A stretch of DNA of 64,000 nt, from NCBI RefSeq assembly GCF_963678975.1, contig NC_089274.1:6312001-6376000 (forward strand), read 5' to 3'. The translations under genes were made by a program, and so were the position numbers. Numbering within the stretch: the first letter of the stretch is position 1; each line of letters begins with the position of its first letter. Of the stretch, positions 5,722-31,300 are shown piece by piece. Source of the DNA: Dysidea avara. Its lineage: Eukaryota > Porifera > Demospongiae > Dictyoceratida > Dysideidae. Below the pieces are notes generated by a model, which saw nothing but the letters and a program-made list of their open reading frames with translations, did no database searches and was not told the origin of the DNA.

Positions 5722-5924
5722 TTATTAAGTGCTGGAATTGGACATGAAACACTAATTAAAATTCATTACAAAAGAAAATAATAATAATAACAACACAATG
5801 ACAATAGAGCAGTTGCACAAATAATTACTTTAGATGCACTTAGAAAAACGTGTGGCAAGAATCCATTGCCACACTAGCCATTACGTACAGTATGTTACCA
5901 TTTACTCTCACTCTTACTGTGTTC

Positions 5925-6115: not shown

Positions 6116-6189
6116 GGTATGGGTTAGATATACAGTGATATATATTGATTTACATTTGTGACATTTAAATATGGCAAAATAAAAAAAGC

Positions 6190-6300: not shown

Positions 6301-6465
6301 TTGGTGTCACATTTTTTCTAAGTTATAATGGTAACATACTGTACCTAATGGCTTTTCATTGCCACAATGCATGAAAATTGCGTATTCGATTCTACTGCCA
6401 CAACACAAGTATGGATAGCTTAGATACTACAGTGTTACATTCACATATTATAAGGTATTAATATA

Positions 6466-6733
6466 CTAGAAGGACGAGAGCGTAGCTGGTCTGGTTTCTG
6501 AAATTACGATAAAATTCCGCTTTTTATTAGCACACTCACTAAGCCAGATGCCTATTCACGTTTACCAATGTGTTAAAAGAGTTTTTCTGACACAATTATG
6601 AAGAAAGAAAGCAGTTTAGCCTCGCCATTTCAACTTACGGGTGAACCTGTTTCGAAAATGCGTGAGCGAATAAACACTATTTTTGCTATCCTAGTAGCCA
6701 CAAAGCAGACCAGCTATGCTCTCACTACTCTAG
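6466..6733. mobile_element. MITE with TA duplication
   Basis: 268 bp. Left end CTAGAAGGACGAGAGCGTAG; right end is an imperfect complement (...CTATGCTCTCACTACTCTAG). Both sides are flanked by TA. No open frame. Consistent with a Tc1/mariner-type non-autonomous element. Confidence 0.6.
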
Positions 6734-7751
6734 TATGTTAGTACCTGATAACAGACGATTATCAACACCCACATAGTTTGGCTGTTAGTCACTCTACAAT
6801 AACAGGAAAATGAAACACGCAATTTTCCCAGCATCTGGCTGTACAAATGCCACACGTTTCAGTTGAACGCCGCACCTGTGACGTCACATGCAACTGCTCT
6901 ATGAGGATTACCAGCAGAGGCATCAATGGGAACTTGTGTCAGTGTGTTAGTACATAGATATTAGAGAGAAGGGATAGGCAACCGAGCGCGCGCCGTGTAT
7001 ATCTACCATTGATTGTGGTTGAAGCACTCCTCGGTATTGATTAAATCCATGCGGACAGGATGGCAGTTTGTGGTTTAGTCGTCTTACAGTTGATTTCAAC
7101 CACCTTGTGGTATTGTAGTTGATATACAAGACTTTTAATGCTTCTGGTTTCTGCTGTTTAATCGTCTTGGGTGGTTTTCATCGCCATTTACGATTTTGAT
7201 CATCAATGGGTACCTCCGTTTTTTGTCTACCTGTTACGAAGAACAGAAGTCTAGTTCCACTGGGGAAATAGTGCCGAAGTCTTCGCAATACTTTGAAGTT
7301 TTGCACAGTACCACTGAAAGATATTTCTCGTATAACAGCGCTTGTGTTGTAGTTGATAAATCATGGAGTAATATTTTATAAAGAACCGAGATGAGACTGC
7401 CAAAGGGCATTAATCAAGCGGAATAATAAAATGAAGTACACCATGCAAAACTATGTTACTTTAGGGTTACTGTGGCATTGTTTGCCAGTCGAAAGTGAAC
7501 TTACCATGAACACAACAGGTACACAAAAAAATCGTGTCAACTGAGATTAAAATGATTGATGGCGGCAAAAACTCACAAGACTTACAATAGGAGTTTGCCT
7601 AGTACTTGTAAAACATAAAGAGATTGTCATGAAATACTCCACGCCCGTAGAAAGTAGTCCAGAGCAGAAGACACCATTTTGGCCTCATGCATTCACCAAC
7701 GGCGGAGAGTTTCAGGGCGCGCGCTAGTTTCTAATCCCTGTACTCTAATAT
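6734..7751. other. Intergenic, no recognised feature
   Basis: Non-repetitive sequence of somewhat higher GC. The short open frames here carry no motif I recognise. It could contain upstream control sequence for TERT, but I see nothing specific. Confidence 0.4.
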
Positions 7752-8211
7752 CAAGAGTTCATAATATATATACTAAGGAGAGTATCCTACTCTCATATAC
7801 CCCTGTAGAAAGGCGTATCGTGAAGTTATGACGTAACACATCTGAGTTCGCCCGTTTTTCTTTGTATAATTAATGATGTCATTAGTTGAACACGGTATCG
7901 ATTGAATGCGTGCCTACCAACGTCGCTAGCAACCAAATAAACTCCAGCTCTAAGCGTTTCTCACCCAACTACAATCGTTCCTTCATGGATTAAGACCTCT
8001 TCGTAGGCGTTTCTTACTAGGCCATTCGCAAATACGGCTATCCTGAGCGTCACAAGTGTGAAACGGCACAAACTATTCTTGCACTTTTACGGCTTCCTGT
8101 ACGTCACAAACCATAACATCTTGTCGTTACGTCATAACTTCATGATACGCCTTTCTACAGGGGTATATGAGAGTAGGATACTCTCCTTAGTATATATATA
8201 ATGAACTCTTG
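7752..8211. mobile_element. CAAGAGTT-family inverted-repeat element, copy 1
   Basis: 460 bp with terminal inverted repeats of roughly 85 bp, beginning CAAGAGTTCATAATATATA and ending in the near-perfect complement. A 7-bp direct duplication, CTAATAT, flanks it (7745-7751 and 8212-8218). No coding capacity. It shares its terminal CAAGAGTT and 7-bp duplication with the elements at 9078-9375 and 58851-59325. The superfamily is unclear; 7-bp duplications are uncommon. Confidence 0.75.
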
Positions 8212-8519
8212 CTAATATCTATGGTTAGTATAGGGCAAACTGACATCTGCTATTCTAAGAATTCAACCTTATGATGGAATAATGGAAATGGACCACCCGC
8301 CCGCACGCAAATATGCCTATGGGAAACAGAACTTTAGGAGTGACCTAAATGCCGAATTAAAAAGCGTTGCTGCCGCAGCAAGTTTGGGTGCGCCAGGACC
8401 GAGCCCGGCCAGGACAATTTAAATGACTGGTGCAGTATCACAATAATAACACTTGCCATGCGACATCACTCACATAAAACTAGCTTCGTCTTGCTGCTGC
8501 ATAAAGGGAAATACCCCCC

Positions 8520-8649
8520 GACTTAGGCGTTAGTTAGCCCGCCAAAAAGTTCCACTACTTCCTTCACCAGTCGCCATTTACATGATGCCATCACGTGATC
8601 TCAACTTCGCCCTGATTACAAGTTTGGGGCTCTGATCTCTCGTCCGCGC
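8520..8649 (+). promoter_or_regulatory. Candidate TERT core promoter
   Basis: Within 130 bases upstream of the proposed TERT start are an E-box CACGTG (8592-8597) and a CCCGCCAAAA run (8538-8547), the complement of an E2F-type TTTTGGCGGG site. There is no TATA box, and the local GC is higher than its surroundings. Vertebrate TERT promoters are also GC-rich, TATA-less and E-box-containing; similarity in control is an inference. Confidence 0.4.
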
Positions 8650-11600
8650 ATGGATTGTCGTGGTGAGTTATTTTACCCTGCTCGATAGAGTGCATAAATA
8701 CAATAATAGATCTATTTTATTGATTTGCAGCTATTAATATTCTCAAGCAGCTGTACACGTATTGTGCATCGTTAAGGGAAACAGTTAAGTCGTTATCTTC
8801 AGGATATGAACTAGTAATCAATGGAGATGATATCAACTACACTCACTTTTGTCACACAGCGGTTGTTGCAGCTCAGACGATCCCAGGTGGTCAATTTGAT
8901 GTCGTCCAGACGCGAGCACAGCTAGAAATATTGCATAGCATTGTGGAGGTAGGCTATGAGTATGCATAGCTTATATTATTATAATTTATAGTAAAGCCAT
9001 ATAATATAATTACAATGAAGTCATGGGAATAATTTTCTATACCCATGGATTCCATTTCTGTTTTAATAAAGTGTGAACAAGAGTTAATAATAGTGGAGGG
9101 AGAGTGTCTAACACTGCATAGGCCTGTAAAAATGATCCTGAGAAATTCAAAGGGATTCCTTCAGATGTGTAAAATGTTCACACAGGCAGAACAAGGTAAT
9201 GTGATGATTGCACACTGAGAGAATAAAGAAATGTGATGATTGAAACAATCTTCACCTATGGAGAATACTACAAATTACAGAGTTTTACAGAAAGAATCCC
9301 TTTGAATTTCTCAGGATCATTTTTTACAGGCCTATGCAGTGTTAGACACTCTCCCTCCACTATTATTAACTCTTGGTGTGAACTACAGTGTCTCTGTGTC
9401 GGGAGTTTGTAAAAGACGGAATAAGGAATAGCGGAATAACGGAATAACTCACATCACAACGAACGGGCATTTAAATGGCTTATGCAATGTTAGGGTGATT
9501 GTACTGTTACAGCTGTGAACTACACTGCTTCGTCACTCATAGATGTCCTAGCGAAATGATTACTATACGCTCTTACTACTACTGTATGTAACTAAGCTAG
9601 AATATACAATAGTTACTACCAATGTCGCAAGCAAAAGGGGGTGTGACAGCCGTTTCGTTTCATCCCTCCACTGGAAGGATGAAGACTTAAAACGAAACTA
9701 ATAGCTAACTACTGTATATTCTAGCTGTGCTAGCGCGATGATACTTAGCTACATACAGTAGTATATAGTAAGAGCATATAGTAATCACTTCGCTAGGACG
9801 GCTATGAGTCACTCTGTGATGAAGCAGTGTAGTTCACAACTGTAATAGTACACGCAATCGCCCTAACATTGCAAGGATATCTACGAGGGATGAGTTCACA
9901 GCTGTAACAGTACAATCACCCTAACATTGCATAAGAAGCCATATTGATATAAAACACCCATTCGTTGTGACTCGAGTTATCTGCTATTCCATTATTCCTT
10001 AGTTCCGCCTTTTACAAACTCCCCTCTGTGTCCTATTTTGCTGAGTCAAGTTACCTTGATCAAAGTAATACTTCAACCAGTGACAGAGAAGTGTTGATTG
10101 GTGTTTATTTGTGTTGATAAGGTCAAGGCTTTATTTGACTTAGCTGGTGATTTTCCTGGATGTGTTTCCAGTTAGACAATTCTCTCCAATTTCATTATGA
10201 ATTCTTGCTATGACTGTTGTAAAGATCGTCAGCTGAAACTTTTTATCCATCATGTAGTTTACACTTGTACTGCTGTGCTGACATGGTGTAATTGCTCACT
10301 GACTTTTCACCCATCAATGGCTGGACTACTGCCTGAATAACGTCTTCCTCGTTTGTGGAATGCTCTTCCTGTAATCAATACCAATTTATCAATTGCAACC
10401 ATCAAGGCTAAACTAAAGAAATTTATGTGGAATCATTTTCTAACTCATTTTGACGATGACAATCACTGTACCTACCATTATCTATGTCCGTGCAGCAAAT
10501 GTCACAATCTCTCGCCACCATCAAACTTTCAAACACTATAGCTAAGTTATAATTAGTTAAAATAATTATAATGTATGTATAACTTGTGTTTTTAGGCTGC
10601 AAGCATCAGTTGCTTGCAGACCCTTGGCATACTTGCCATAAAGTAATAATAAATAAATAAATAATAAATAATATCACACTGTTGTAAAATAAGAACTCAC
10701 CCATATACACGTTGTTTTAGTTTACATAATACTAACCTCAACGAAGTTATTGCACGGTAGCATGTAAACTTTGGTAAAAGCCAGCCCAAACAAATAACGG
10801 GATGTTTACAAAGACGTCTTATACTCCATAGAAAGTTTATAGATATTGCAATCCATTTCACAGCTGGTTTCTTCATGATTTATTCCATTTTGGTGTTGTG
10901 CACGTGTATATTATGGCTACAGTCCTTAGTTAAATTTTAATTAATCCCAATTTCATGACAGTAGCTAGCTGTAGGTGTACACTATTTCCCTTACTTCAGC
11001 ACTACGATCCCTGCTCAAACCTGGAATTCTCTTTACACTTTTTGTTTAAGGTAATACAAGTACAAGGAATTTTAAGACTTCAGAGTAGGAGTTGTAGCCA
11101 TGAGATTAAATAGTATAGCTGCAGGTGTAGGCAACCTTCCTTGCTTCATTTTTTTCTATGGCCTCCTTAAAATAACCTTTGTTTACTCTTTTTATCATTG
11201 TGATTGCATGGTTATGCATCAAAGGATAAAATGGCACCTGAATTCTGCTTCATTTGCTGCTGATTATGCAATACTAAAAATGAAGGAAGCACCTCTGCTA
11301 TCACTACGGCAATCGCAGACGGTTTCCCTGAAAAAAATAGCAACCATTACATGCAGCCTGAGAATCAGCACCTATGCAGTAGTAGAGAAAGAAATGGAAG
11401 ACAAATGTAAGTTTATAATGCATCCATTATAGCTGCTGCTATAAGCAAAAGGCATGTCTTGGGCCTAAGCAACAGCAAGCAGTGAAAAACTCAAGCCCAT
11501 AGCATTGTATTATCTGTAGTCAAGTTATGCTTGAATAGAGGCATCGGTCAGTTAGTACAATTTTATAGTTCCATAGTGAAGTATTTGGGGTTGCTCTGAA

Positions 11601-14600
11601 GACACATTTGGGTTTGATTATGCCTAACCAATGCTGTCAAGCAGTCATGAAGGAAAAACAAAGCTGGTTTTTGAGTGATGTTTTTAGACAAATCCCTACT
11701 AATACTACTGTACTGTATAATGAGGTATGCTGTCAAGAAATATTATTTCAGGTTGACATGTGCTCTCCTTGCAGAACATGTGTAGGACCTCAACAGCAAA
11801 TGTTCTATCTCTTGGTTATCAACAGGTAAATGCATGATTTAGCCATGTTCCTGGTAGTCATGCTGTTCTATTTATGTAGTTACGACACAACAAGGGGTTA
11901 TTGGTGGCTGGTACTAAGAATATAGAAAGTTATTATCCTAATACTATTTCTACATATGTAAATGGACAACTATGGCAGAAACTTCTCACCAGGTTTGTTA
12001 ATCAGAAGTTGTATGATTGTAAGTGCTCAACCAAAGCACGCAATGTATATAATGAATATTAAATCAAAGAGTTAATGATTCTTGGTACATTGCTCTGTGT
12101 ATTTTATGTGCAGCATCTAACTTATGAAAACATCTTGTGACTTCACTATGTATTATTGTTCTCCTTTCTGTCATATGCATATGATACGTCCAAATTTTGC
12201 ATTTTAGGATTGGATAAGTCACCGTTGACACTAGGGATTTGTTATTACATGTATGAACTTTTGGCTTAAAAGTTTTTCTTTCATATGTACGGAACTGCAA
12301 AACATGTCAAGCTATCATATATACAATAGCAGTGCTAGTATTTGGAAACTTGACCTGCGTGTATAGGTACAAGTAAAGGTTTAAGTTCGATTAGGGATTA
12401 AAGAAATTCGCCTACAGTTGAAGATGTACCTAGTGGACATTTAATCCCTAAATCTTATCTTGTTTGTTTAACATTATTATGACTGGTGAACCTGTGCGTA
12501 CCGCATTAGAAGAAAGGCTTATTGTTTTCATGCCCCAGCAAAATGGCCATCATGCTTCGTTTTCAGTACCAAGCCCAAAAGTGCCTTTAGTACAATCTGA
12601 AATGTTTCCAGCAGGTTGCTTAAATTCATTCAGTGGATGACTGACTGACTGATGCCTTCAGACAAGCGTAACTCAATAACTGCTAAGGCCACACGCTTGA
12701 TGTTTTCACTGTTTGACGTCACTTTAGCCCGACAAGTGCTTTTTGACATACTGCAGTATGTACAATGCATGCTTTATGGACTTAACTGTGTCCTCCTTTG
12801 TGTCCCATTTATCTTTGCTGATAGCACAAGGTGTTTGCAGTGACGGCTTCCCTATACTGTACACTTGTGACAGGAATCATCTTAGTTTTCCGTTGTGACT
12901 GGATGTCCTTTTCATAGTGTTCTTCATTCGTAATGCTGTGTAATGGGCTGGAACATATATACCTATCCAATAATGCCAAGATGCCATGAAGGTATTGTGA
13001 GGCTGTTTTAGGGTTTTGTCCAGAAAACCCAAGCCTTCATGATCCTTATATACAGTACTATTGTACTGTATGATATGCATATATATATATAGTCTTCATA
13101 TACTTTTGGTTCTACATACATGTAGCACCTTACTATAATATAGCTAGTTTGTTTTCTCAGTCTGTTTGGGTATGCAGGAATGTTGTCTAGTTATGCTACT
13201 GAACTTTTAGTGACATGTGGGAAAATTTGCCATATGAAATGGCTTCTTTGACATCATTTTAGTTCCTCAAAGTTAATCAATGGTGAATCTCACAGGTTTT
13301 TTTTTCTATGAATGTAGTTAGTGATAATGATATTTATTACAAAAATAAGTACCATGGTATGTTATCCTATGCAACCCTAAAATATATGCATTGCTGTGTG
13401 GAAGTGTATGATCTATGATGCAATCTTTTTCATAGGATTATGCATATCAAGCTAGGAGTTGATGTAGCATCTTTTGTCACAAAGCATTTGTTTTTTTCTA
13501 CATAGTTGTCAGGATTTTCTACTCTGTAACCATATGAATTTCACACTCACTCAATGTTTACAACATTGCCTAATTAATGTAGTTCACCACCTGATATTCA
13601 CCAAATTTGGGTATTCACCAAATTTGAGTCCCTTGTAGATAGGTACTTCCCTCACTTCATTGTTGTAGCTACAATGTACATGCTGATTTTTTTTCAAAAT
13701 CAGTTTCTTAGTAATGCAACAGATGGGACTAACTTTTCGGTAAATTATTTTAAATATTAACCCAGTGAGGTCATATGTGTATGTGTGACCATCTCAGCAA
13801 AAACCTGCGTAGTTTGCACGAACTTTTCTAATAAAACATATTGAAAAATAAATAGTGAAATAACACATACTATAAAGAAAAAAAAAGTTATGAATTTGAA
13901 ATCTTGTAGTTACTTTGTGAAGCAGGTCTAAACGTTTATACTGTCTTGTTTGGAGAGTTTGTTTTGTTGTTCCTGCAGCCTATAAAAGCCATAAGTGTTA
14001 CATGTGTGTGTTTATGATGTGATAGACGTGAGTACAATGTTGGTTGTCATTTATTCATCTGAAATGCTTAATGTACTTGTATGTTCCAAGTGAATTTAGG
14101 ACTGAACTATACCTTGGCAGATTTGCCAATTCATGGCAAACACTTGAGACCAAGTCCCAATTCTGTAGACCAATGTGCACATCAGTTGTGGATGTGAGTT
14201 TAAATGCCTGTAGGTTATTTTCAGTTGTGTAAATTGAGTTCATTGCTCCTTCTACTATCTAACAGTATAATTCTCTAAAACTAATAACCACAATGGGCTG
14301 AATATTTATTAACCTATTCCATTTATGCTGTAGATATTACCGAGGCAATAAAAGAAATTTGGAAATATTGTTAACTGTATGGGATTTTACTGGGAGGTCA
14401 CACATGTGTTGTGTACTAGTGGCTTTGCAAAACTGATGTATTTAAAACGCCTTAAACAGTCCCTGGGTTATTTTGCAAGCATTCAAGATGCTATAACTTG
14501 TTTGCATCATTGACTGACCTATAAGTCTTATTAGGCTTATAGGTTTGGTTATAGGTTTTTATGTATTCAAGTCCATGTTTGAGGCTGACATATGGATAGT

Positions 14601-17600
14601 AATTATTCCAGCTGTACTATATGTGGGAACACTGCCATGCTACAGAAAGGGGAAAGTTTTGTGGTAAGATGAATTGTTTTGATATACAGACCACTGCAGA
14701 TGCTGCAATTGTTGTTTCCTGAGCTGTCTAAGCTTTTCCATTGGTTCTTTTTGTAGGATATCATATGTAGTAGGCATGTGCACACACCCACACACAGTAC
14801 ATAGTACATACACATATGCACATGCACAAACACACATGCAACACAAAGATCTTGTGCAGCATTGCATTTTTCTACAGGATTGGTGATGATATGATGATTT
14901 ACTTGTTGCAAAACTGTTCACTCTTTGTCAAACTTGATCATGGCTGTTTTCTGCAAGTTACAGGTAAACATTAATACATATTTCAGATGTCAACTAGCTG
15001 TATATCTTACAGGACCACCTATTGGAAATCTGTTTCCAACTGCCAGCGTGCTTTTTCAACGTGTAAAGTCTAGACAATCCCAATCTAAACAAAAAAAGCG
15101 AACTATTGATGATAAAGCTTTCAATTCAGTTCCCAGTGCTAAAAGACACAAACATCAACTGGAACATATTGAACCAACCAGTTGTCATATTGACAGAGTT
15201 ACTACATCACATGCTATCCAACCCAATCCACTGGAGATGTCAGAGCTGTATCTTACTGCTTGTGAGTCACCTGATGAGATTGTGGGACATCCCACAACCA
15301 GTCAGTCCCATGGCAAATCACCTCAGAGAGGGAAAAAAAGAAAACATCAGGATGCCATGCAACTGATGTCTAAAAAAAGACTAAGATTAAGCTATAATGA
15401 AGTCATTGAAGTACCTAGGACAAGGAAAAAGACCATAAGGAGAAATGGTTATTTTATATTATTATCATATCATTACTATTTAATGGCATTTATAGGATAC
15501 AAAAGTGATAGGAGGATGCCAAAGAAGTAAGGGTTATCCCTGTTGACTTTTATACACATGACTTCTGTTTAGGGATGTTTTTATTCGTAGAAGTCAACTG
15601 TTCTATACCCAACAATTAAGAGACTGTTTTCCTAGCCCAGGTAAGGAATTAATTGGCATTCCATCACTGCATCATTGTGTTTGATTTGGAATGGATCAAT
15701 CTAGTGGGACTAAAGTATATGGTGTCATATAGTTTACCGATATAGGGGACCCCAGAAAAGGTAGAATACTGAATACCTGTGATCAGTATGCCAAACTTGC
15801 TCCTTGGAGTGGTACAAATTTCTTTTAATATTATATGCATGTAATACATGTAGTATTAATTTTCAAAAGTCAATGATCTGTGCTCATCATTTGTAATGCC
15901 ACACGAAGTTTTAGTGGTGTGTGACTGAGGCAATCGTGTATTTTATATTTGACTTGATGTTCCTTGATGTGTCTGTGTTGCACGTTACTTTTGTATGGTG
16001 GTCTATTAACAATGTAGGCATTTTTTTGTGATGGCCCATTAAACTATATTAGGTAGACAATTTTCCCCAACAGAATGTTTATATTGATAAGTTTGGGTGC
16101 AACTGTACTGTCCCTAATTGCAAGATAACCCTGTAAGTAGCCATCCACTCTAGAAGCCTGTTCATATGTTACATGCTGTAATCATACAGGACATTGTCTC
16201 CTAGATCACATCCTTAGCAATATCAGTTCTAGTAGGAGAGGTGCCAAGAAGTTGATTATTGATGTGTTCACAGTTAGTAGACTAAATGGTGACTGGAATA
16301 ACTACCAGCAACAACAGCAAAACAAGGTGTCTACAGGTGTGAACAAGGTTAGTAACATAAACCTTGTGGTTTATGATGTGATATAGGGTATTTCTAAGGG
16401 TATTACCCTTGGAAATACCCTATGATGTAACTTGTATGTCATCATCATCATCTTGTATAAATAGGACTGTATTGTGAGGATTGCTCACAGACTGATACAA
16501 CTCATTCCCACATTTCAGTCACTGATAGCCAGTCATGAGTGAGTGATGTCTTATTCCACAATGATGTGTCTGCAGTACAAGTTTCAGTCTGTACAAATCA
16601 CTTCTGTAGTCTGTAGTTATGCCAATAGCTCCTATACTCTCTTAGTTTTATGTGTTTAAAAGGCTTTACTTGTTGTAGTAACTTCTGTTAAAAATTTTTC
16701 ATTTTAGTATTTCTATTTCCAAGCAAAACTAAGAAAATGTTTAGCTTAACCATGTACATTAAGGGAACATTTTTGTTGTTATGGAATAAATGTCAAGGTC
16801 ACACTGTGCATAAACTTGTGTATGAATGTGTTTCACTGTTTAGTTGAGTTTCAATATGACATCAAGTTAGCAAGCCATATGCCTATAGTGATCAGACTAA
16901 ATTTCAGTCTATTTTTTTTTTCATTTTACAGTGGCCACACATCTGACAACTTCCCTGACATGTGTACATAATATTGTGCTAACTGATACATCTACAAATC
17001 CTGGTGTAGCAGCTCATGAAATTACAGACCAACTTGATACTACATGTATTAGACCTTCTATGTTTATTTTCTGGCATTGCCTACGTACAGCCTGTGACAT
17101 GTTTACATGGGTTTGGTGGTCTAGGGTCTTCAGGATGGCTCTGAAATTCGTACAAAAGTCTTTGTAATGTCGAGCAATATCTTTTACCTATGAGCAGCTT
17201 CAGAGGAACTGGTTTTGCTTTCATGCCCTTCCAATGTGGCTATACTGACTATCCTATCTTCATCCTCTATGTATTCCTACAATAATGCTCATTGTATAGC
17301 AACACCATTCTATGAAAGTACAAAATGACTGGAAAATTTACAAGGAGTGTCAGTTTTGTACATTGTATTCTTTATTGTACAGAATTTACGTAAAATACTG
17401 CATCATTGTAACTTTCCTTGTATAGATAGACCAGATGGGTGTAGCTCTAAACTACAATGACTGTTGTTATGGTATCATTATACAGGACTACCAACTACAA
17501 AGTAAAACTGAAGAAGCATTGTCCTTTGCCTCGAGTAAGTCTGTCTTCATCTCTCATTGTCGTGATAATTACACATATCATTGTCTTGATATACAAAATT

Positions 17601-20600
17601 ACCAGCTACACTGTACAACTTATTAATGTTATGTCATACAACTAAACTACTCCATGTTGACTGTTGCCTTTTTATAAGCCACATCTGTACACTGACCACA
17701 AAGTATACTGTCATCTACATGGCTTGTGGTCAGGTTAACATTTGTTGTATCATTCTAATGTTTTGATAGCATGACTGAGTTGTGTGGCAGAGTTGTGTGG
17801 CAGACAGGAAGTTTTTACTATATATGTGTATTGTGTGTGGGTGATTTATGTGTGATGAACAATCACCATTAGCTACATGCATAGTACACATTTTTGAAAA
17901 TATTATGGATGGAAGACTTGCATGGCTTGTGTTTATCTCATGCCATTCTAATGTAATTCCTTAGCTATACTATAATACCTTATATGGTTACTCACTATAC
18001 AGGGCTTCTATGAGAAATCCCCTAGTGGAGAACTGACTGGTTACATCACATTTGACACACTAGTAGGATGTTATACCAGTCACAGTCAGGTAAGTTACTA
18101 GACTAGTTACTGTAGTTACCACATGTGCTACTGTTAGGTTGGTGACTTTGTAATATCAGTAGTTGATCAGGTGATACCTGATGTGTTGTGGGGTAGCAAG
18201 TCAAACAGGAACACCTTCTATCATCGTATCTTTAACATGATCACTTGTTAGTCATAATATTATGATTTCTTAATGTGATAAGACATCAGAAGATTTATTA
18301 AGTTAGGAAGATATGAACGATTTTCCTTGAAGCAGATTTTACATAAGATGAAGGTAAGTCAAGAGAAGAGATTAATGATTTGTGATTTGTACACTGTAGA
18401 TGCACAATTTAATCTTGCATTGTAGCAAACTTCACTTGTGACTGAGGTTAATATTTGAAACTTAGTCATCTTGAGACTGTATAAACATTACATGACAGTG
18501 ATGGCACACAATTTCAAACTAATGTTGGTTAACCAAAGTCAGGATTTGGGAAGGTTATTTTAAGACTAAATTTTTAAGTAGCAAAATGATGATGTGTATG
18601 CATGTCAATTTAATATTTAACATTGTGAGCTGATTACAGAACTGATCTATGACTTGAAATATACTGTTACTATGTCAAACAATAAATAGAGCATTTTGCA
18701 AAATATCCCCTCCTCTGTGTTTATTATAACATGATTTTGTGTTTGTGTCAACTGTACAGCCTTCTCAGTGTGGCTGGTTGAAGGTCAAGACTAGTGGATG
18801 GAGACAAGTTACTGATAGTAATAAACAAAAACAACTCTTCAGTGAATGGTTGTTATGGCTGATGGATGAGTTAGTGGTGAAGCTGCTAAAGGTAACAATA
18901 TAGCGTTCTAATTATTGTATTATTGAAAAGTTGATTATGGGATTCTTGGACCACAAGGATACCATAATACAGTTTCCCTAATACCCAGAGTTGGGGTTGC
19001 TACTCTGCAATTCGTTACATATTACTAGTTACTTCTATGCAATGTAACGTGTATTACTCTAAAAAAAAAACAAGTAAAGAGTTACATATTTACTCTAAGG
19101 GCAGTAACTAATAATATTATTACATATTGCATTTGTTCGTTACAAGCTTTAAACTAAGCCCAACCTTCTAAATACATGCTCCCAGCCTACAACTACAAGT
19201 GAGACAAGTGTTTCTCTGGTGTAGTTCAGCCTCAAAAACATATTTTGTTGTAATATCTTGGTCTCAAGGGGGTCTTCAGTGCTGTCAGGGCCCAAAATGC
19301 AGCCAATCACGTATTGAATACAATGCATATTAAAAAGAAGTACCGCCTTACGATTTCCAGATGTAATATTTGTTATATTACTCTTTACTTTGTCGTGTAA
19401 TGCGTTCGTTACAACATCAGTAATATGATTATGTAACGCATTACAAATGTAACTCATTACCCCCCAACTCTGCTAATCCCATTTAGAAGTTCACACATGT
19501 CTTAAATATTACACAATATACAACTTGCAGTGTATTAAGTAGTGCACAATAGTGCTTTACCTACTGGACACTTGCTAGTTTTGGTGTACACAATATCTTG
19601 GCAGAGTATTATGTTGTGTTGGTCTCTTTATATGACTTAATCTATAGTACATAGTGTCTTACTCTACAGTACAACAATAGCCTGGTGCATATTATATGTA
19701 TGCATAGACTTCACACATACTTGTAATGTTATTTCATTGTAGGGAGGTATACTAATAACCATTTCAGTGGTTGGCTTCCTTTTTGGAATTGTATAGTTAA
19801 GATTTTGCCTAATCAAGGTTGATAAAATTATTTCTCATCCTTCTTGTGTGTGTTCTATTAGAGTATTTTCACTGGATTGACAGGTCTTTGTTTTTGTAGG
19901 GATATTTCTATATTACTGAGAGCTCCAATCATCGCAACAAAGTGTTTTATTACAGAAAGCCAGTTTGGAAGAGGATACAACAACTTGCTCTAAAAGGTTG
20001 ATAACTCTGTTATCTTCAATTATTCACTAACTTGGTATTTCTCTCAGATGTTACAAAAACTATGTTAACAAGGATTAGTCAGGTAAGATCTTGTACTGCA
20101 GTAAAGACTGTTAACCTGAAAAAGAGGACATCTTTTTGAGTCAAACGTTTAGTTTAAGGTCTCCAAGTTGCTATAGGCCTATCAAGCACCTTAATATCAT
20201 GATAACTAACGTACAGCCTCATTACTAGTGAAATACGTTTAGGACTTATTTGACTTGTCCTGATGGTCCTGGCTGCTAAGGGAAATCCTGTTGAACAATC
20301 CCAACTACAATGTAGTTTTTTGAGACAAACGCATTGGAATACATTGGTCATAACAAAATGCATAGTGTGAAAATATTTTTACGCACACCTAATTGCTTCG
20401 GTAAATGACCCCATTATCTGCCTGTTCATGGAAAGTACAAAAAGCTTTGTTTTACTTCACTGTCATATTGAGGTGTGTGTTTGTTCATGTTGTGGTAAAA
20501 TGTAACTTTATCTATAAACTTGAATAGCCTTGTAGCCCTTGTTGCTGAGCTTGCTCTCAAGCATGGGTGAAATGTACGTATACCAAAACAATACCTTGAT

Positions 20601-23600
20601 TAATTCCCCAGTTCACAGCAAGCACAATGAGACAAGTTGTGCTTGTGAGATAATGTACAAAATCAATTGTTTCGTATTTCCTGCTTTTGTTGCTGTTACT
20701 CAAGTACTCAACAGAAAATTAAAGGCTATGATTTTATTTTAACAGGCCTTTCCTCTAGACAACTAAGAAAGAAAAATGCAAAGTAGTTAGGTTTTGGTGA
20801 CTAAGGATCACATTTGGTCTGTTTACTAGGATGAAGTGAAGGAGTTGGTTGAGCTGAAGCAAACAGTGGGTGTAGCTAAACTACGATTACTACCTAGAGT
20901 GGGTGGAGTTAGGCTTATTGCAAACATGGGGTCACGTTTGAACTTGCCATTTGTACAGGTAAACATCAAGTATAGCTGACTGTGTTACTATTACTTGTGA
21001 TGTGATAGATGACTACAACTGGTAAACAGGAACACTCCATCAACTCTAAACTACAAAATGTGTTCCATGTACTCAACTATGAAAAGGTAACATATAGTGT
21101 CACTGGTCAAAAGTGTTTAGGCCTAGATCAAAACACCTTCTTCTCTAATAGTAGTCCTTTTAAAGATGCTCACCCCAGATGTGTTTTGAAGCAACTCTAC
21201 TATTGTTTGAAATTGCAAATAGTGGTCTTTCATGTATGCAGCAACGTGTTGAATACTATAAATTCTATAGTTTAATTCACCCAGTTATATTTGAATGAGG
21301 ACACCTTGGCACCAACAAAAAGTATCCTGGTTTACAAGGTGTCCTGATTTTACAAGTCAGGTTATATGCTAAGAGATTCTTTGGGACCAATATCAAATGT
21401 CCAGATTATACAGGTGTTCTTATTGTCAAGTGCCCTGATTAACAAGCCCCACCACAACCCCCCCATGCACACACATAGCCTATAAATTGTAAAACACTCT
21501 AATAGAACAGTCATTTTTTGGCAAGTAGTTAAACAATCAAGCATATTATCTAATACAAACATTAATTTGTTGTTTTCTTTCATTACATCAGATGAACCAC
21601 CCAGAGGAACTAGGTCATTCAGCATTTAGTCCTAATGATATTTATAACACTTTGCTACCGTTTGCTCAAAGACTTCAAGAGGAAAACAGAACAGGGTGAG
21701 TTGTGATGTTGTATTGTATTTATTTTGCTTGACCTGAAAACCGGATTAATAGATACCAGACCTTCAGTGATATTAAGAGTAAATTACTATTAAATAATAC
21801 ACCCCCTTAAATTAATTGTATGTTCAGCCCTTGCTTAAATTTGTCTCAGACAGTTATGCAGTAATACAGGTTTAGTGTATGCTTTATTAGGGAGTTTATT
21901 GTACTATTAAAGAAAGTCTTATTGTTGATTTTACTTTGCTGATTGTGATTTAGTTACATGCATGTATCTAAAACAGTTTGTAAAATGTTCTAATACTTTC
22001 ACCCTTTACAGACCACTGTTCTTCATCAGTGTGGACATCTCATGTTGTTATGACTCCATCATCCAGTCTAAGATCTGTGACATCATAAAGAAGATCATTA
22101 AAGAGGTGTGTAGTTTTGTAATAGTAAGGGGATTCTTTTTAGAAAAAAAGTAGACCTTTTGTAGCATGGCATGGATTTGTGAAACATACATATTAATACT
22201 GGGGAGGCCTGAGGGTATACCCCCTATCCCTTCTGATAAGTGGGTACCAAAAGATTTTACTTAGTAGCATTTCATCAGTTCTTCCAAGATTACTGTATTC
22301 AAATAACTGACTGTTATATTAGAGTATTTGATTGTTCTATTGTTGTATCTAATTGCAGATGGTGTGCATGTGATTTTAAGAGGATGGTTTATCGAAACTT
22401 ACCACCCCCTGCTTACAGACCTGTAGGGGTGAAGAGTAAAGCTGTTTTAATATACCGATTCACTACCATAGGTGTACTCCATAACTATTAAGAATGTGCA
22501 CTCTAGTACTTTGTCCTTAGAGTTGTATTATTGAATGCCAACACATGGACTTGTATAAATCCTTTTATCCAAACTGTGGAAGTGACTGTTCTATTAGAAT
22601 ATTTTAACTGAGCTCTATATAAATGTATGGGCTTTGTTCATCCAAACGTTTCCATTATCTGAACACACCTAGTTTGGATAATGGAGGAACCACTGTACTT
22701 TGATCGGCCATATATATCTCCATCGTGCTTCATCCCACAACATTAAACTAAATGCCATTAGACTCAGCACATGATGGCAATTTAAATATTATATAAAAAG
22801 ATTACATGACTACAACATGGATCCACCAGAAATAAAGCAGAAGTTCAGTGAAGGTAATGTCAACGATTTATCGCTTCATATCGCAAATACTGTTTCATGT
22901 TGGACAAAAACTGTTTAAATAAATATTGTAGTGTATGAAATTACCATTAAGTATGTCAAACAATAATCATCTTCATTTCATAGAAGACCAGTGTTTCCCT
23001 CATAAAACAAAGTTATGCATTCCTCCATATTTGAAAATTAACTTGGTCCACAAATGACTAATTGATTGATGGACACTAAAGTTACCATACTGTAAAATTA
23101 CAATAAGAATACCAGGTACAAACCTTGTAAAATTTGCACTGCACCTTCCCAGATATGTGTGCATTCTGTGAACATACATACTGTAAGTATGAGTAGCTGC
23201 TACCTTGTAGTCCTATTATGTCTAACTTTGAACTGAGTATTGTATTTACTTCACATACAATATTTAGTGTAGGTCTAGTGTATTTCATTACAGGATGAGT
23301 ACACCATTAGGAGATATGTGACTGTGATGGTATCTAGGAACAGGATCAGAAGACACTACAAGAGAACTGCTACTATACCAGGTAACTATAGTAGTTATAC
23401 AGTGGAGCAACATTGAAAGGACAATCACACAATGAAAATCAGGACATGTACACTTGCGACGGTTCTATCTGAATTTGTGTGTGTATCTGCTGTCTGTATG
23501 AGTGTGTGTATGCATGCACACATGCGTGTGGCGTGGTGTGTGCGTGTGTGTGCGTGTGTGTGTGCGTACATGCATGCGTACATGTATATTGTGTTGAGAG

Positions 23601-26600
23601 CCATAAAATCAAGATGCCTTTTGTATAAGGATGTTTAGGATGGAGTCAAGCTGTGCTAGATAGGTTCTATAGTATTAGTAATGGTATGTATTGCAAAGAA
23701 TTTTGGGCTCATGCAGTTATATCGAAAATTAAACCTTAGATTGAGTAACTCATCTCTGTACATGTACGTACCTGTTATGAACCCTTGTACTATTTACTAT
23801 TGCCATTTATCAGTTTCATATGCAACTGTTTTAGGTGACACTGTCAGCTTCCCTGAGTTTGCAAATGATTCAATATCAAATTGTTCCCTCAGAAATGCTA
23901 TCATATCAGACCAGGTGTGTGTACACATGACATGTAGTGTTGTCATGGGGAAGGTGTTTGTAGGTGGTGTATCCTTTTGAGGAAAAGGAAGCTATTCTGG
24001 CTACACTGAAGAAGCACATACTTCAGAATATTGTCAAGGTAATATTTTATTCATGATGTTAAGACAAAATAAAATAAGAACAAATTGTTTGTCCCTGTGT
24101 TTTTACATTATTTGATAATTTTTCATTTCTGCATTTGGTGCTTTTATTATGGAAATTGTTTTATGTTATTCAGTTTGGAGGGAACTATTATCGACAAGTT
24201 CAAGGCATAAGTCAAGGATCCATTCTTTCAGCTTTACTCTGCAAGTAAGAGAAACTTGGCATGCCTTCAATCAACATGTACAATACTGATTGCTCTATTA
24301 GAGTATTTTTAAATTACTGACAGCAGTTATTAGGTATACCTGATTGTTAAGCAATAATGCTTGTTCAGCACACACAATAAACTTGCACTAGATGAAATGG
24401 CTGCTGTAACCTTGTGCAACAGATGATTGCTTGAGCAAACTAGAAGTGTCACACCACACTCAGTACCTCATCAGGCATACTTATAGCAAATACTACTGCC
24501 TGTATTAACAGTTGCACCTGACTCTGCATGATTGTTGTTTAAACTATTTTACTGAATACTAGTACAGTACCACCCAGAGGTAATGTTGCACTCACGAGCA
24601 GTTGACACTCGTGTAGCCAATCTTTGACCCGCGATTTCTTTGGCATGTGTGTGCTAACTAACTTACCACATGTAGCCAAGAAATGCAAGCTCCCTTGGAT
24701 GGCTGCTCCAGTAACCGCATGCCTTCACATGTAATGCATTTCAGTCATGTGTCGAGTCGTGGCCTGGATTTGAACGCTCGCGAGGGATTGTAACGTTACC
24801 TTTGGGTGGTACTGTATAAAAATTGCTTGAGAAACATGGTGGGCATGAATAATGCTCTCCTAGTATCCTTGTCATCATTGATAAGCGCATACATTTAACA
24901 AATGTAGCAGTAAATTTTACAAACATTTCCAGTAAAATGATAAGCACATGTGCCAGTTGATTGACACTGCAACCATTTCTTGATTTATCAACTTTTTTAC
25001 CCTGAATTTTTGGGGGCCGCACTCTTTTTATCACAGCTTGGCTGTTTTGGTATAGATATCACTTCATTTTGTATGTGTAATGCTTCAAAGCAAAGCCAGC
25101 CACAAGCTGTTTTTTTATTTTTTATTATGTAACTAGTATATTATCAATTTACAAATGATGTAGGAATCTAAGTATTAAAAACTAGAAAGACAAAATTATA
25201 CTATAACTGGAAAAATCCCTACATAATTATTTGTTTAATATCAAGGTAGGGATTTTCCCACAGAACTATGTTGATCATTCATATAATCTTGTTTCACTAG
25301 TTTTTATTGCTAGATCCCTACTTCATTTGTACAATACATACTTATTTTTTGTTGTAGCTTACAGCTATGATATACGCATGTGACTGTTGTATTAGAATAT
25401 TTTGGCTGTTGTATTATGGTGATTTCAAGTGGACTTTCAGCTAACTGGACTATGTGTGGTATTTAAGGGGCGTGGTCACAGCTTTTTTTCATCGTGCTAC
25501 CGATAAGAGGCTTGTATTTAATACAGCTAGATCGTTAAAGAGCGTGTTCCTTGATCACCTAAGTGTCGTGTGTTGGCTTCTTGGACCACATGAAACACTA
25601 CCATATGTGACCGGATCTGTGAAAATTCGACACAATCGTGCATTTTCAATTTCCTGTATATTAAATATTTATAATCTACTTAGCCAAGTGTACCCTCTGG
25701 CAAAGTTTCAGCCTCATACGCCAATAACTTTAGGAGTTACAGCCCTACAAAGTAGCAACAACAGAAAAATCAATTTGTACAGCAAGTATAGGGAAAATAA
25801 ATTACAGGCGCCTACAAAAAGGATTGTAACTTACCAACGAATTGAGGTACGGAGTTACAATTTTCACCTGCATATGATCACTTCGACGTGACGTAAACAA
25901 ATGCTCATAACTTCCGTATCCTTGGGTCTACTGCAACGAAACAAAGATTTTCCAACTCCAGGCGAATAAGATATTTACACCTTTATATGGAATAGTCTAA
26001 CATCAAGAGTACATAATAAATAAGTTTTATCATTGCAACACTTGAAATTAATAATAATTATTTGAACAGTGTTCTGGAAAACATTGTAAACCAGCCATCT
26101 TTGAATGGTTTTTAAACATTTATTGTATCATTATTTATTGTAGATTACAATTTAGCAATCACTGTATACCTGTGAGTCATACTCTCTACACAATAACAAA
26201 TAAATACAATAAAAACACTCATGAATGTTACATTATACACTATACAGTTATTATTATGCTGCAATGGAGAGAGAATACTTACCAACACTGGACCCATCAG
26301 AAAGTGTATGTTACCACACACTAGATCATAATATAGATGGTATTACTATAGGTGATGATAAGACTGGCTGATGATTTCCTGCTGATAACAAAATCTAGTT
26401 CAGTGGCTAAAAAATTCTATCATAAAATGGTCAAAGGTATGTGTGCTGTTTAAACTGCATAGTATACGAAATCATTATATTGCTAATGTTAAAAGGCATA
26501 CCAGACTATAATTGTTTCATCAATGTCAACAAAACTGTAAAGAACTTTGAACTGTTGGAAAACGGAAAGGTAGAACTAGTTAAGAATGGTTAGTTGTCTT

Positions 26601-28317
26601 GTTGTGCTATTCCTTTTAAACTTCCCTTTCTCTACCATTTCTACAGGTCCCCAGTGGATACCATGGTGTGGTTACCTGATCAATACTACCACAGTGGAAG
26701 TACGTGTGGACTACTCCAGAATGTTATTTGCTGGTAAAGTATTTTATCTATTTTCTCACTTATGTGTTATATTGACATATAGAACTCAGAGATGCTGTCA
26801 CAGTACACTTGTACAGTAAACCATTACATCACATGCAACAAGTCCTTATGAGGTAAGTTGTAACTATTATACAACACTGTATATTAGGGATCATGGAGGT
26901 TTATACCTTCTCTCAATAAAATTTGACAAGAAACCAGCCTCACAAATATCTTCATGGCACCTTGGCAGTATTGATCAGGTATAACCAAGCCCAAAAGTGC
27001 CTTAAGTATGACTGGAAATGCTTCCAATAGGTTGCTACAATATTTTTGTTTTAATTATTCAGTATAATTTTCTGCTGACTGCCTGATGCCTTCAGACAAG
27101 TGTAGCTCAATAACTACTGGCTTGATTTTTTGACTGTTCGATGCCGCTTCAGCCCAACAGGTATCTTTTGGCATACCACAATATGTACAATGCATGCTTC
27201 GTGGACTTACCTGTGTCCCCATTTATCTTTGCTGACAGTGCAAGGTGTCGATTCATGGTAACACCGCGTAATGGCTTCTCTACATTTGTAATGAAAATTG
27301 TCCAAAAATTCTGTTGTGAATGGATTTGATTGCAGAGATCCTTCTCGTATTGTTTTTCACTGTGTAATGGGCTGAACATAACTCAAAATGAAGCATAATG
27401 ACCACTTCACTATTTCAGTAATTGACAGTTGGGTGTACGTTCAGACAAAAACAATAAGCCCTGGCACCATTTTCTTCTAATGCGGTATGTGCAGGTTCAC
27501 CAATGATGTTGTTTATAAGATAAACAAATAAGTACAAGAAAAATTAGGAATTTTAAGTTCAATTAGGGATCAAAGAGTAGGGAAACAAGGGTCACCTACA
27601 TCTGAAGATGTACTAGTGGATATTTAATACCTTCTTCAGTCTATACACGCATGAGGGATTAAATCTTCAGTATATTCCTTACACTTGTTTTAATAGCAAT
27701 GCTGTGCTTGTTATTTGTAGCACGATACACATCAAGTGTCATCCTCTACTGCTCAGTAGTAAAGTAAACAACATGTTACATAATTCATCACATTACCTGA
27801 CCATATTAGGTCAACTCAGAGGATACAATCATTATTAACATTTATCAATTGTTCCTACTGAGTGCTATGAAGTTCCATATTTACATGAAGGAGATGCACA
27901 TTAAGAGGATGACTCAATCACTAGTGGAATTTCAGTTCAGTAAGTTACTAGTATACACACAGCTGCACGTGTCACATTATCACTTCATCAGATACTATTA
28001 TCAAGTTGGTTCAATATTGTTATAAGCTGATCAGAAATATCTACCATGAGGTTAGTGATTGTAGTTGAGTTTGTGTTGATATAATATCAGTTTATTACAG
28101 GTACCAGGATGTGTTGTTGAGTATCGAGGTTGTCAGTGGTAAGATTACTAGCTACATTTGTCCATTCACATTTAGGTCACAGAGTGTGTATGATATATCA
28201 CTAGTGTTAGTTGCCATGAATGATAATACTGTTTACGTTAGAAGCTTATCCATTCACCAGCACAAATTGTTATCAAGTACATGTGCTTGCTGTGTGTTTG
28301 AAGTACATACTATCTAA
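8650..28317 (+). CDS. TERT: Telomerase reverse transcriptase (full-length, 35 exons)
   Basis: Catalytic protein of telomerase, which copies an RNA template onto chromosome ends. Exons: 8650-8662, 8731-8948, 11775-11825, 11880-11992, 14878-14963, 15013-15447, 15496-15526, 15573-15640, 16190-16347, 16465-16538, 17486-17534, 18003-18089, 18138-18225, 18283-18353, 18760-18891, 19900-19996, 20048-20082, 20830-20958, 21009-21086, 21592-21695, 22012-22105, 23294-23381, 23835-23914, 23964-24038, 24174-24244, 26248-26305, 26352-26436, 26496-26588, 26647-26733, 26783-26852, 27721-27763, 27810-27939, 27992-28050, 28101-28138, 28176-28317. All phases agree, giving 1,109 residues. TEN region: SYYPNT (111-116), VTGPPI (159-164). 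A Lys/Ser-rich linker (about 165-315) has NLS-like runs. TRBD: RRSQLFY (321-327), KKHCPLP (425-431), YFYITE (560-565). RT: KLRLLPR/GVRLIAN (motifs 1 and 2), VDISCCYD (A, Asp714), QGISQGSILS (B'), LADDFLL (C, Asp868/Asp869; Ala where Val is usual), NVNKTVKNF (D, Lys902), PWCGYL (E). The CTE is divergent. The ATG and tiny first exon are the least certain parts. Confidence 0.95.
9078..9375. mobile_element. CAAGAGTT-family inverted-repeat element, copy 2
   Basis: 298 bp in the TERT intron between exons 2 and 3. Arms of about 95 bp start CAAGAGTTAATAATAGTGGA and end in the complement. The 7-bp duplication GTGTGAA lies at 9071-9077 and 9376-9382. No coding capacity. Confidence 0.8.
9401..10023. mobile_element. 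Mutator-like palindromic element, 9-bp duplication
   Basis: 623 bp, ends GGGAGTTTGTAAAAG and its complement, flanked by the 9-bp duplication CTCTGTGTC (9392-9400 and 10024-10032). The arms pair almost to the centre near 9700, so nearly the whole element is a fold-back. Long terminal repeats with a 9-bp duplication are typical of MULE/Mutator non-autonomous elements. It lies 25 bases to the right of the preceding element in the same TERT intron. Confidence 0.75.
10330..10670 (+). mobile_element. 5'-truncated LINE 3' end
   Basis: An open stretch (RLPRLWNALPV... then LKKFMWNHF) matches the C-terminal tail common to CR1/L2/Jockey-type LINE reverse transcriptases. A non-coding 3' end follows with a small hairpin (CTGCAAGCATCAGTTGCTTGCAG) and a TAAATAAATAA tail near 10650-10668. 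It lies in the TERT intron between exons 2 and 3 and is inactive because it lacks the RT core. Confidence 0.7.
12361..13080. repeat. Dispersed complex repeat, copy 1
   Basis: Intron sequence of TERT that recurs at 26960-27640 and in part at 39190-39420. Shared blocks include GTACCGCATTAGAAGAAAG..., CCAAGCCCAAAAGTGCC and TGATGCCTTCAGACAAG. Some blocks are in reversed order between copies, suggesting an element with internal inverted segments. Open frames in it have no recognised domain. Ends not resolved. Confidence 0.55.
14784..14845. repeat. CA/ACAC microsatellite
   Basis: Imperfect (CA)n tract with TACA interruptions immediately upstream of TERT exon 5. It explains the cysteine- and valine-rich open frames on the minus strand. 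Confidence 0.8.
16383..16424. repeat. Perfect short hairpin in a TERT intron
   Basis: ATAGGGTATTTC...GAAATACCCTAT arms with an inner GGGTA/TACCC pair; about 19 paired bases with almost no loop. It sits between the exons ending at 16347 and beginning at 16465. Confidence 0.6.
18986..19472. mobile_element. hAT-like element, CAGAGTTGGGG family, copy 1
   Basis: 487 bp, ends CAGAGTTGGGG and CCCCAACTCTG, flanked by CTAATACC and CTAATCCC (7 of 8 identical), the 8-bp duplication of hAT elements. The interior is rich in GTTACATATTAC-type words. It lies in the TERT intron between 18891 and 19900. A second, much interrupted copy is at 50034-53505. Confidence 0.75.
23497..23575. repeat. GT-rich microsatellite
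   Basis: Imperfect (GT)n/(GC)n tract in the TERT intron after the exon ending at 23381. The open frame across it is repeat-derived. Confidence 0.8.
24565..24814. mobile_element. Inverted-repeat element with TA duplication
   Basis: 250 bp, ends CAGTACCACCC and GGGTGGTACTG, flanked by TA on each side. The arms continue imperfectly (AGAGGTAA / TTACCTTT). It lies in the 2-kb TERT intron after the motif B' exon. No coding capacity. Confidence 0.65.
25440..26010. other. Unidentified insert-like block in a TERT intron
   Basis: A block of higher GC than its intron. It contains TATGTGACCGGAT (about 25605), the same word as the inner end of the 659-bp repeats near 56550 and 60440. An open frame of 145 codons (25454-25891) has no motif I recognise. 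It may be a diverged relative of those repeats; the boundaries are unclear. Confidence 0.35.
26960..27640. repeat. Dispersed complex repeat, copy 2
   Basis: Second copy of the 12361-13080 repeat, in the TERT intron between 26852 and 27721. The first half is parallel to copy 1, while 27361-27530 matches it in the opposite orientation. No recognised coding domain. Confidence 0.55.
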
Positions 28318-31300
28318 CTTTTGGGAAACTTTTTGACCATTGTATAGGTAATGATTAACCACACATGTCTCACTATACAGTGGCACCTTAGTCTGGTGCA
28401 CCCGCCCCTTTGCATTAAGCAAGGGTTTGGTGAAATACAGATACTAAATCATTTTTAACACTGAAATTCAGTGGTAGCCAATTAATGCATGCCGATGACG
28501 TTAATACACACATCATCTTGGCAATGCAATGCTTACTTTTATACAAATTGTCTGACTTATGTACACTGTCTAATTGAATTCTTTTGAAATGATATAGGAT
28601 CTGTTCTGTATTTCAACAGACCCCTACTTTTTGCAGCGGTGCCAGACTATGGTAGCACTTTTGCATTGACTACATAGTTATTTAGTGGAGTGAATCATTC
28701 TATACAATGTTTTCATAGCACTAGGACACATCTGTGTTGTGTTTGCATGGAACCTAACAGACCAGCTAATCAGTCTTGGCATGTAATAGGTTACTCATGT
28801 TGAAATTTATACCAATGAAACAGAGGAAACCGATCACAGTAGTTCTAGTCTCAGGGAAGATTCTAAGGCTTTCTGAAAATGGTTTCCTATTAAATCTCGG
28901 TTGTACTGTAAAGGTTAAAGACTGAATTTAACAAAGAATAGCACAAATTTTAGTTATAGGTAGAAATGGGCTACAAACTTTCATCCAGAAAATGTAGTGG
29001 CCACTATAATTGGCCAGAATATAGAAGAATTTCAAGTTTGACAAACATTTGAATAAGCTTTATCTATCAGTTGTAAAGCACTGATTTAATATGCATTTCT
29101 CACAAGACCATTCCTCCAGAAATTTTACATATAATACAATGGATGCCTTGATATTTATCCTCCAATACTGTTGTGTAAAATCCCTAAATGGTCTCTTTTA
29201 AATATATATATAAATTGCACCAAGGTAGCTAGTCAAATATCTAAATAACTGTTACATGTCATTGTTAGGTTATGCTTTACTGCATATGTCAAAATTTTGA
29301 GAAGAAAGCAGTCCACTCATTTGCCACTATTATACATGATTACTAAAGCATTAAGAAGAACTTCTTATTTATTGGTGTGTGAGCAACTATAATTATTGAT
29401 AACACTGTTATTAAATTGTTTCCGTATAGTCTCCATCAGAAGAGTTGAGGTTTACGGAAGTTGTTAAAAGCCATAATTTTGATTTTGTTGTTTATTAATT
29501 CTTCTGTATGTCTGTACAATACAAGTAAAGAAATGGTTTGGAACTGTAGTATGTGACACTTGTTCATCTAGTTAATTAGATCGCAGCATCAAATTGGGTG
29601 AATAATTGTGACATAATGCATCATTAATAATACCTTTTCAATCATAGTCTATAGGCCTAACACTGTATAGTGTATACACAATGGCGGATCCAGGATGGGG
29701 CATTTGGGGCAAATGCCCCCCCCCCCTTCAAGAAATTGCATACAAGATCAAGATACTCTAATAGAGCAGTAGATTACTCTAATAAAGCAGCCACAATGTT
29801 CATGAGGCAGTGTAGCTTACCTATGAAGCTATAAATAGGATTTTATTTTATATAACAGACGTGATATATTTGGTAAAGGATAACTAGCTATTATTGTTGT
29901 GACCTTTTTCTTTTTTTTTTTTTGGTCTTCAACTGTTTTTCAGCAAGGTGCACCCCTCTCTTTCCAAACTCTGGATCCGCCCCTGATACGTATCTGAACT
30001 AGTGTAATGTGTATAGGCTCATGTGCTTCAGCGAGCTACTCTTGCCTACAAATTACACCATGCACAATCAACTATGTTTTGGCTATGCTTTTCCTCTATC
30101 ACCTACAAGATGGCATTGAGCAACGGCTATTGGTAAACACTGAGAATTGTCCGTGTACATGGTCCAAAATGTAATATAATTCCCAGCCATTCTACATGAC
30201 ACTCCTACCGTGCACATCTAGAGCTGATCATGAATAAGAGTTACCATACCAAAATCAGTAAGACTTAATTATATATCAGCAAAACCTGTGCCCTTGTGGT
30301 ATAAGTGATATATATCACTCTAGGCACAGTACACTCACCTGACAGGTAAAAAAACTACAGAACACTCACCCTGTTCCATTTATACATCAGTATTTGATAT
30401 TTGATAGTGGTTTTAATAGCCGTTAGAATATTATTCATAAATCATTGTTTATACACAGTGCCAGAAAAATTGCTATTTGTGGGATCCAGTTTTTTAGTTT
30501 TTGCATTTTGTACTACATTAAGTCTATAATGCCCTCAGTCTGCAGTATGAGTTCCCTGTGATTGGTGTTGTGGTTACAGTTTATTTGGCTAGCTAGGGAT
30601 GCTGGTAACAAAAATTTTGTATAATGCTCTGTGGTTAGGACTCTAGTTTTCTTATTATTGGATACAGCAGTAAAATGATAAGTCATATATAAGCTAACTA
30701 GCTGTATATAAACAAACACACGAGTAATGTTAGACAACATTAATTCCCATTGCACATCACACAAATTAATTATAGCTCAAAAAGTATGAAGATAAAAATT
30801 TTACAACTAGTCATAACTATCAAAATAGATACCACATGTACTATAGAATGTTTCATCTATGCATTCCATCAAACTACATTGAATGTCAATTATATAGGTA
30901 GTGACCTCACTTCCTGCCGTTGTTCTTTGCCTATCCATAGCTCCTGGTGCATGGTCCTCTTTCCTGGCCTGGTCTAATTAAGCAAAAATGCTTAATGTAA
31001 TTTGTGTCTGGCTTATAGGAGGGGAGAATATATCTCCTATGGAGGGGGGTTGGGGTGGGATGAATAATTCAAGTGGACAAAGTGTGTAAGTGAATGTACA
31101 CATACACATACCTTGTAAAGCATCAACAAGGCACAACAAAGACAGAATGCCCGCACACACTTTGTCCCTTTGCTGTAATTTGAATCAAGTCATTATCCAC
31201 CCACTTTGCCTTAATAAAAAAAGGCTGGTAAATAGGTTACTCAGCATCTCTTGGTGGACAGGATTGAAGGTGCTACTCTTTATACAAACAGTGAGGAATG

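Follow-up and report, generated by a model that had tools for sequence, protein, structure and literature searches.

The window analyzed here, 64 kb of the Dysidea avara genome, contains a complete telomerase reverse transcriptase (TERT) gene model in 35 exons at 8650–28317 on the forward strand. Judged from sequence, the gene is very probably a working TERT standing in tandem with an old upstream partner whose 5′ half at least was long under selection, whose 3′ half was most likely converted, and which, truncated by a deletion, is now most likely dying. As expected from the family, the window product would bind telomerase RNA through its TRBD, and its D714/D868/D869 active site would copy the template onto chromosome ends.

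Exon borders were located independently from the raw sequence. They join into a single open frame of 3,330 coding bases including the stop, with GT–AG borders at 34/34 introns and phases agreeing throughout; the frame, free of internal stops, encodes 1,109 residues when 28176–28317 is taken as the last exon. Independent exon chaining thereby reproduced the exon number, protein length and phase agreement of the initial annotation. Exons 1–25 are further supported by an upstream paralog, which repeats them with corresponding introns. Exons 1–34 were all found by exon chaining, and additional support is named on each line:

8650–8662 (+): exon 1, ATG; identical-length 13-nt exon in the upstream paralog
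8731–8948 (+): exon 2, TEN domain; Pfam, paralog
11775–11825 (+): exon 3, TEN; PDB alignment, paralog
11880–11992 (+): exon 4, TEN; PDB alignment, paralog
14878–14963 (+): exon 5, TEN; PDB alignment, paralog
15013–15447 (+): exon 6, end of TEN and linker; paralog
15496–15526 (+): exon 7, linker, weakly conserved; paralog
15573–15640 (+): exon 8, probably ahead of the TRBD match; paralog
16190–16347 (+): exon 9; paralog
16465–16538 (+): exon 10; PDB alignment, paralog
17486–17534 (+): exon 11 (YKVKLKKHCPL); PDB alignment, paralog version 4 nt longer
18003–18089 (+): exon 12; paralog
18138–18225 (+): exon 13, TRBD; Pfam, paralog
18283–18353 (+): exon 14, TRBD; Pfam, paralog
18760–18891 (+): exon 15, TRBD; Pfam, paralog
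19900–19996 (+): exon 16, T motif (FYITES...FYYRKPVWKRIQ); PDB alignment, TRBD genome search
20048–20082 (+): exon 17; paralog
20830–20958 (+): exon 18, RT motifs 1 and 2; PDB alignment
21009–21086 (+): exon 19; PDB alignment
21592–21695 (+): exon 20; PDB alignment
22012–22105 (+): exon 21, motif A with Asp714
23294–23381 (+): exon 22; paralog
23835–23914 (+): exon 23, 3′ end equal to human TERT intron 7 in codon and phase; intron comparison
23964–24038 (+): exon 24; paralog
24174–24244 (+): exon 25, motif B′ (QGISQGSILSALLC), final exon retained by the paralog; paralog
26248–26305 (+): exon 26; PDB alignment
26352–26436 (+): exon 27, motif C with Asp868 and Asp869; PDB alignment
26496–26588 (+): exon 28, motif D with Lys902; PDB alignment
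26647–26733 (+): exon 29, motif E (WIPWCGYL); PDB alignment
26783–26852 (+): exon 30, CTE; Pfam
27721–27763 (+): exon 31, CTE, 3′ end equal to human TERT intron 12 in codon and phase; intron comparison
27810–27939 (+): exon 32, CTE; Pfam, CTE family genome search
27992–28050 (+): exon 33, CTE
28101–28138 (+): exon 34, outside the human alignment
28176–28317 (+): exon 35 with stop (alternative start 28245); 1,109 aa, against 1,086 aa with the alternative

For exon 13, a second donor in the same phase lies 21 nt downstream; it was rejected because the chosen donor aligns there gap-free with human TERT. The start of the last exon is uncertain. The acceptor before 28176 needs a 37-nt intron, whereas that before 28245 needs a 106-nt intron and gives 1,086 residues (exon 28245–28317); the remaining introns measure 46 to 2,885 nt, many of them about 50 nt. 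TERT_C scores 57.5 bits in the 1,109-residue form against 56.0 bits in the 1,086-residue form, with the match ending before the forms differ. For the C-terminal 63–64 residues the model follows splice sites and the open frame, since neither the human alignment (to residue 1045) nor the TERT_C match (to 1046) reaches them. Within intron 2, inverted repeats at 9080–9990 look by eye like small DNA transposons. Rfam gave zero matches at the gathering score within the 64-kb window.

The predicted protein carries four Pfam domains, all above the Pfam cut-offs: TEN_TERT (PF11474, residues 32–166, E=1.5e-9), Telomerase_RBD (PF12009, residues 461–591, E=3.3e-39), RVT_1 (E=3e-11) and TERT_C (PF21399, residues 966–1046, profile 2–82 of 130, E=1.3e-15, with the last 63 residues unmatched). 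In a PDB search, all 19 distinct sequences listed at E ≤0.01 were named telomerase reverse transcriptase, and human TERT was the best match (E=5.1e-120 over residues 3–167 and 395–1045; 257/812 aligned residues identical). The initial annotation had proposed that an alignment outside TERT would overturn it; the alignment, once run, places the protein inside TERT. Human residues 7–178 align to the TEN region, and the T motif FYITES...FYYRKPVW pairs with human FYVTET...FYRKSVW. RT motifs 1, 2, A, B′, C, D and E follow in order along the alignment, with names assigned by alignment position; the full set of RT motifs reported earlier is thereby borne out, together with TEN, TRBD, RT and CTE. All three catalytic aspartates are present, and D714, D868, D869 and K902 stand as D, D, D and K in their expected contexts and motif order, as previously described. 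An RNA-binding domain with the T motif distinguishes TERT from other reverse transcriptases, according to the available text of Lai et al. (2017; PMC5405514). That the gene encodes some other reverse transcriptase is vanishingly improbable: what favors it is the RVT_1 match, one that many reverse transcriptases would give, whereas TEN, Telomerase_RBD and TERT_C are matched as well and the human TERT alignment (E=5e-120) covers TEN and TRBD–RT–CTE, a domain set that already refutes it. Arrays of TTAGGG or CCCTAA were found at four of the five contig ends read (both ends of C3, the contig that carries the gene, and the starts of C1 and C4); the C2 start was the one read end where such an array was absent. 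TERT matches, motif E and these arrays together point to the telomerase gene of an animal-like genome with ordinary telomeres.

Comparison with human TERT (PDB 7qxa and others), which has all domains in common with the window protein, concerned residue numbering and intron positions. Residues 868, 869 and 902 pair with same-numbered human residues, as the initial annotation had it, and Asp714 pairs with human residue 712; on the alignment, the identical numbering is a coincidence of insertions and deletions. The earlier estimate of about twice the human exon number also agrees with 34 introns here against 15 in human. Human introns were placed using the PDB alignment and the human coding exon sizes. 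These sizes are consistent with the exon 2 facts in the accessible part of PMC3480478, namely that human exon 2 measures 1.3 kb and that a transcript without it retains the first 73 residues. The alignment ends before introns 14 and 15, so 13 of the 15 were placeable: 12 fall within aligned codons, and intron 2 adjoins a gap. Two of the 13, human introns 7 and 12, are identical in codon and phase to introns 23 and 31 here, leaving 11 without an exact partner. Four fall within 2 nt (the two exact ones and two in another phase) and eight within 14 nt, against chance expectations of 0.15 exact, 0.73 within 2 nt and 3.7 within 14 nt (P = 0.0095, 0.0047 and 0.013, respectively, by a simple binomial that ignores alignment error). 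A few of the intron positions are therefore probably ancestral, although most of the 34 have no exact human partner. The suggestion that this gene would help to trace ancestral introns holds modestly, in that matches exceed chance, but these are few, with 2/13 exact.

The gene is not a single one. Searched with the TERT RNA-binding family, the whole genome (550.8 Mb, 108 contigs) yielded 12 scored candidates, of which two matched: the window TERT and a second locus on its contig, in the same orientation and about 52 kb upstream. Extended by exon-by-exon tblastn over the 50 kb upstream and completed to 25 exons by reading the DNA, this second copy (C3:6268667–6288314) corresponds one-to-one to window exons 1–25, with 24 corresponding introns. 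Frame is kept in 24/25 exons, length changes in exons 6, 7, 9, 15 and 19 being multiples of three (for exon 7, the phase-keeping donor was chosen from several). In exon 11, an extra 4 nt shifts intron 11 by as much and breaks the frame over exons 1–25, and the exon 10 donor is GC, not GT. With tblastn (E up to 10), exons 26–35 turned up neither in the 50 kb upstream nor elsewhere in the window outside TERT, and the TERT C-terminal family gave one match among 11 scored candidates genome-wide, in the window TERT. In DNA alignment, window 23541–25814 matches up to C3:6289898 and window 28904–29669 picks up at C3:6289903, a junction that was also read directly. A deletion of about 3.1 kb thus accounts for the lack of exons 26–35, with motifs C, D, E and CTE, upstream. 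As a working TERT the upstream copy fails on the motif C aspartates, the CTE and an unbroken frame. The initial annotation stands as to the complete TERT; the truncated tandem paralog lay beyond the window. The segments that define the relation between the copies are:

17998–25814 (+): young half of the pair, exons 12–25, introns 13–24 at least partly aligned with upstream; DNA alignment, NG86, intron matches
25815–28903 (+): segment with exons 26–35, absent upstream (flanks 4 nt apart, C3:6289898 / 6289903); DNA alignment, junction read
28904–29669 (+): 3′ flank common to the upstream copy, 84.8%; DNA alignment

Divergence between the copies indicates two ages. Exons 2–11 differ at dN 0.29 and dS 1.30, against dN 0.026 and dS 0.13 in exons 12–25 (NG86, leaving out intron-split codons, unaligned codons and the end of exon 11). 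Introns follow the same step: taken singly, introns 1–12 show no match between copies, whereas introns 13–24 all match at least in part. The 3′ flank is also young (84.8% alike), and the 5′ flank (5600–8650) has no match to its upstream counterpart. Exceptions are one alignment that spans the 49-nt intron 5 and another that reaches about 45 nt into intron 10 by exon 11. Exon 12 is young yet intron 12 could not be aligned, which makes the conversion border ragged. For this mosaic of old exons 2–11 and young exons 12–25, gene conversion in the 3′ half offers the best account.

Kinase-like sequence is repeated beside both copies (window 3834–5602 with C3:6263955–6265738, and window 34028–34861 with C3:6295171–6296003), so the duplicated unit may exceed TERT. 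Weak, below-cut-off protein kinase matches flank the gene at window 4088–4513 and 33902–34231 (−), and a weak CARD match lies at 32301–32669 (−); possibly these belong to an immune-type gene cluster, partly duplicated along with TERT.

In place of conversion, the 3′ half of TERT with its flank might have been recently duplicated beside an older, separate 5′ half. The sharp divergence step would fit such a history, as would the young 3′ flank and the kinase-like sequence repeated on both sides, but exon order, strand and corresponding introns continue across the step in both copies, and conversion of an old tandem pair needs fewer breaks. We consider recent duplication rather unlikely. On the preferred account, an old tandem duplication gave rise to the upstream partner, and selection then acted for a long time on at least the 5′ half of this copy. 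The 3′ halves were recently made alike, most likely by gene conversion, after which the 3.1-kb deletion stripped the upstream copy of motifs C, D and E and of the CTE. With its frame also lost at exon 11, that copy is most likely dying.

Whether the upstream copy is dead or alive was addressed by neutral simulations. Its 5′ half has zero stops in 409 compared codons and an identity of 0.579, while neutral runs (200 at each of three divergences) gave at least 4 stops and an identity of at most 0.504; lying outside all neutral runs on both measures, the 5′ half appears to have been long under selection. The evidence on the 3′ half after conversion points both ways. Over 402 codons of exons 12–25, the copies show 28 synonymous codon differences and 23 that change an amino acid. 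These counts are compatible with a neutrally evolving upstream copy opposite a fully conserved partner, for which simulation predicts a mean of 29 amino-acid differences (26% of 300 simulations were as low), and also with milder selection on the upstream copy. Zero stops were found where about 3 are expected (P=0.046 in 500 neutral runs, with a transition bias somewhat below that observed). A dN/dS near 0.2 in exons 12–25 was considered as a sign of constraint on the upstream copy and dropped, as it found no support once the observed transition bias was used in simulation. Since the upstream copy has lost both its frame at exon 11 and its catalytic end, it is best read as having died recently and is now most likely a decaying relic.

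It is unlikely, in our estimate, that the upstream copy is instead a live truncated TERT, with TEN, TRBD, fingers and motifs A and B′, whose non-catalytic binding to telomerase RNA or DNA restrains or assists the full enzyme, exon 11 being skipped or respliced. Such a protein would be in keeping with the 24/25 exons that fit the frame, the five other length changes in multiples of three (given the chosen exon 7 donor) and the lack of stops across 14 young exons (P=0.046 under neutrality); use of a donor 4 nt downstream would moreover make exon 10 continue into exon 12 in frame. However, reading through exon 11 leads to a stop within exon 12, exon 10 ends at a GC donor, the amino-acid differences of the young half are consistent with neutrality, and after exon 25 a 3′ end is not visible. 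The fuller scenario is distinctly improbable: two TERT genes long kept side by side, their N-terminal halves diverging under selection and their catalytic halves homogenized by conversion, with the truncated copy still made as a non-catalytic telomerase regulator. Truncated TERT splice forms exist in other animals, and, if this scenario were true, the truncated copy would be their gene-encoded counterpart.

Returning to the preferred reading of a working gene beside a dying partner, most eukaryotes have a single TERT gene, as stated in the available part of a review (PMC7658794), so a long-lived pair would be unusual, if real in related species. A TERT duplicate in an animal was not among the literature matches listed (open-access papers, titles and abstract starts), which is weak evidence of novelty. 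The tobacco TERT paralogs (PMC7916837, as far as its accessible text goes) likewise represent more than one TERT gene per genome, but in an allotetraploid plant, whereas here the pair is local and tandem, with one member truncated. The nearest published parallel is the TERT of Amphimedon queenslandica, also from an early-branching animal, intron-rich and with a CTE in the available text of Lai et al. (2017; PMC5405514). It has 29 introns against 34 here, 14 of them counted as shared with human by the authors' equivalent-position criterion, and this sponge gene, published in 2017, weakens the novelty of intron richness implied by the initial annotation. Amphimedon TERT, it is said there, 'entirely lacks the E motif', whereas a plain WIPWCGYL stands in exon 29 of the window gene; the available account does not mention a second copy, in contrast to the upstream partner found here. 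A complete TERT model from an early-branching animal may help to mend incomplete ones, motif E being reportedly missing in Amphimedon. The TERTs of Amphimedon and Oscarella were cloned and expressed with zero in vitro activity, according to the accessible portion of PMC8480181, and the window model could serve telomerase reconstitution tests.

Elsewhere in the window, a repeat of about 660 bases occurs in opposite directions at 55900–56563 and 60436–61100; it is also found once in upstream TERT intron 19 (C3:6284164–6284775), to which both window copies are 82–83% alike. Two TRAF/MATH open frames lie near TERT, at 37691–38413 (+, E=3.3e-13) and 56745–57542 (−, E=4.8e-41), and a 566-residue open stretch at 62301–63998 (−) resembles by eye a non-LTR retrotransposon reverse transcriptase.
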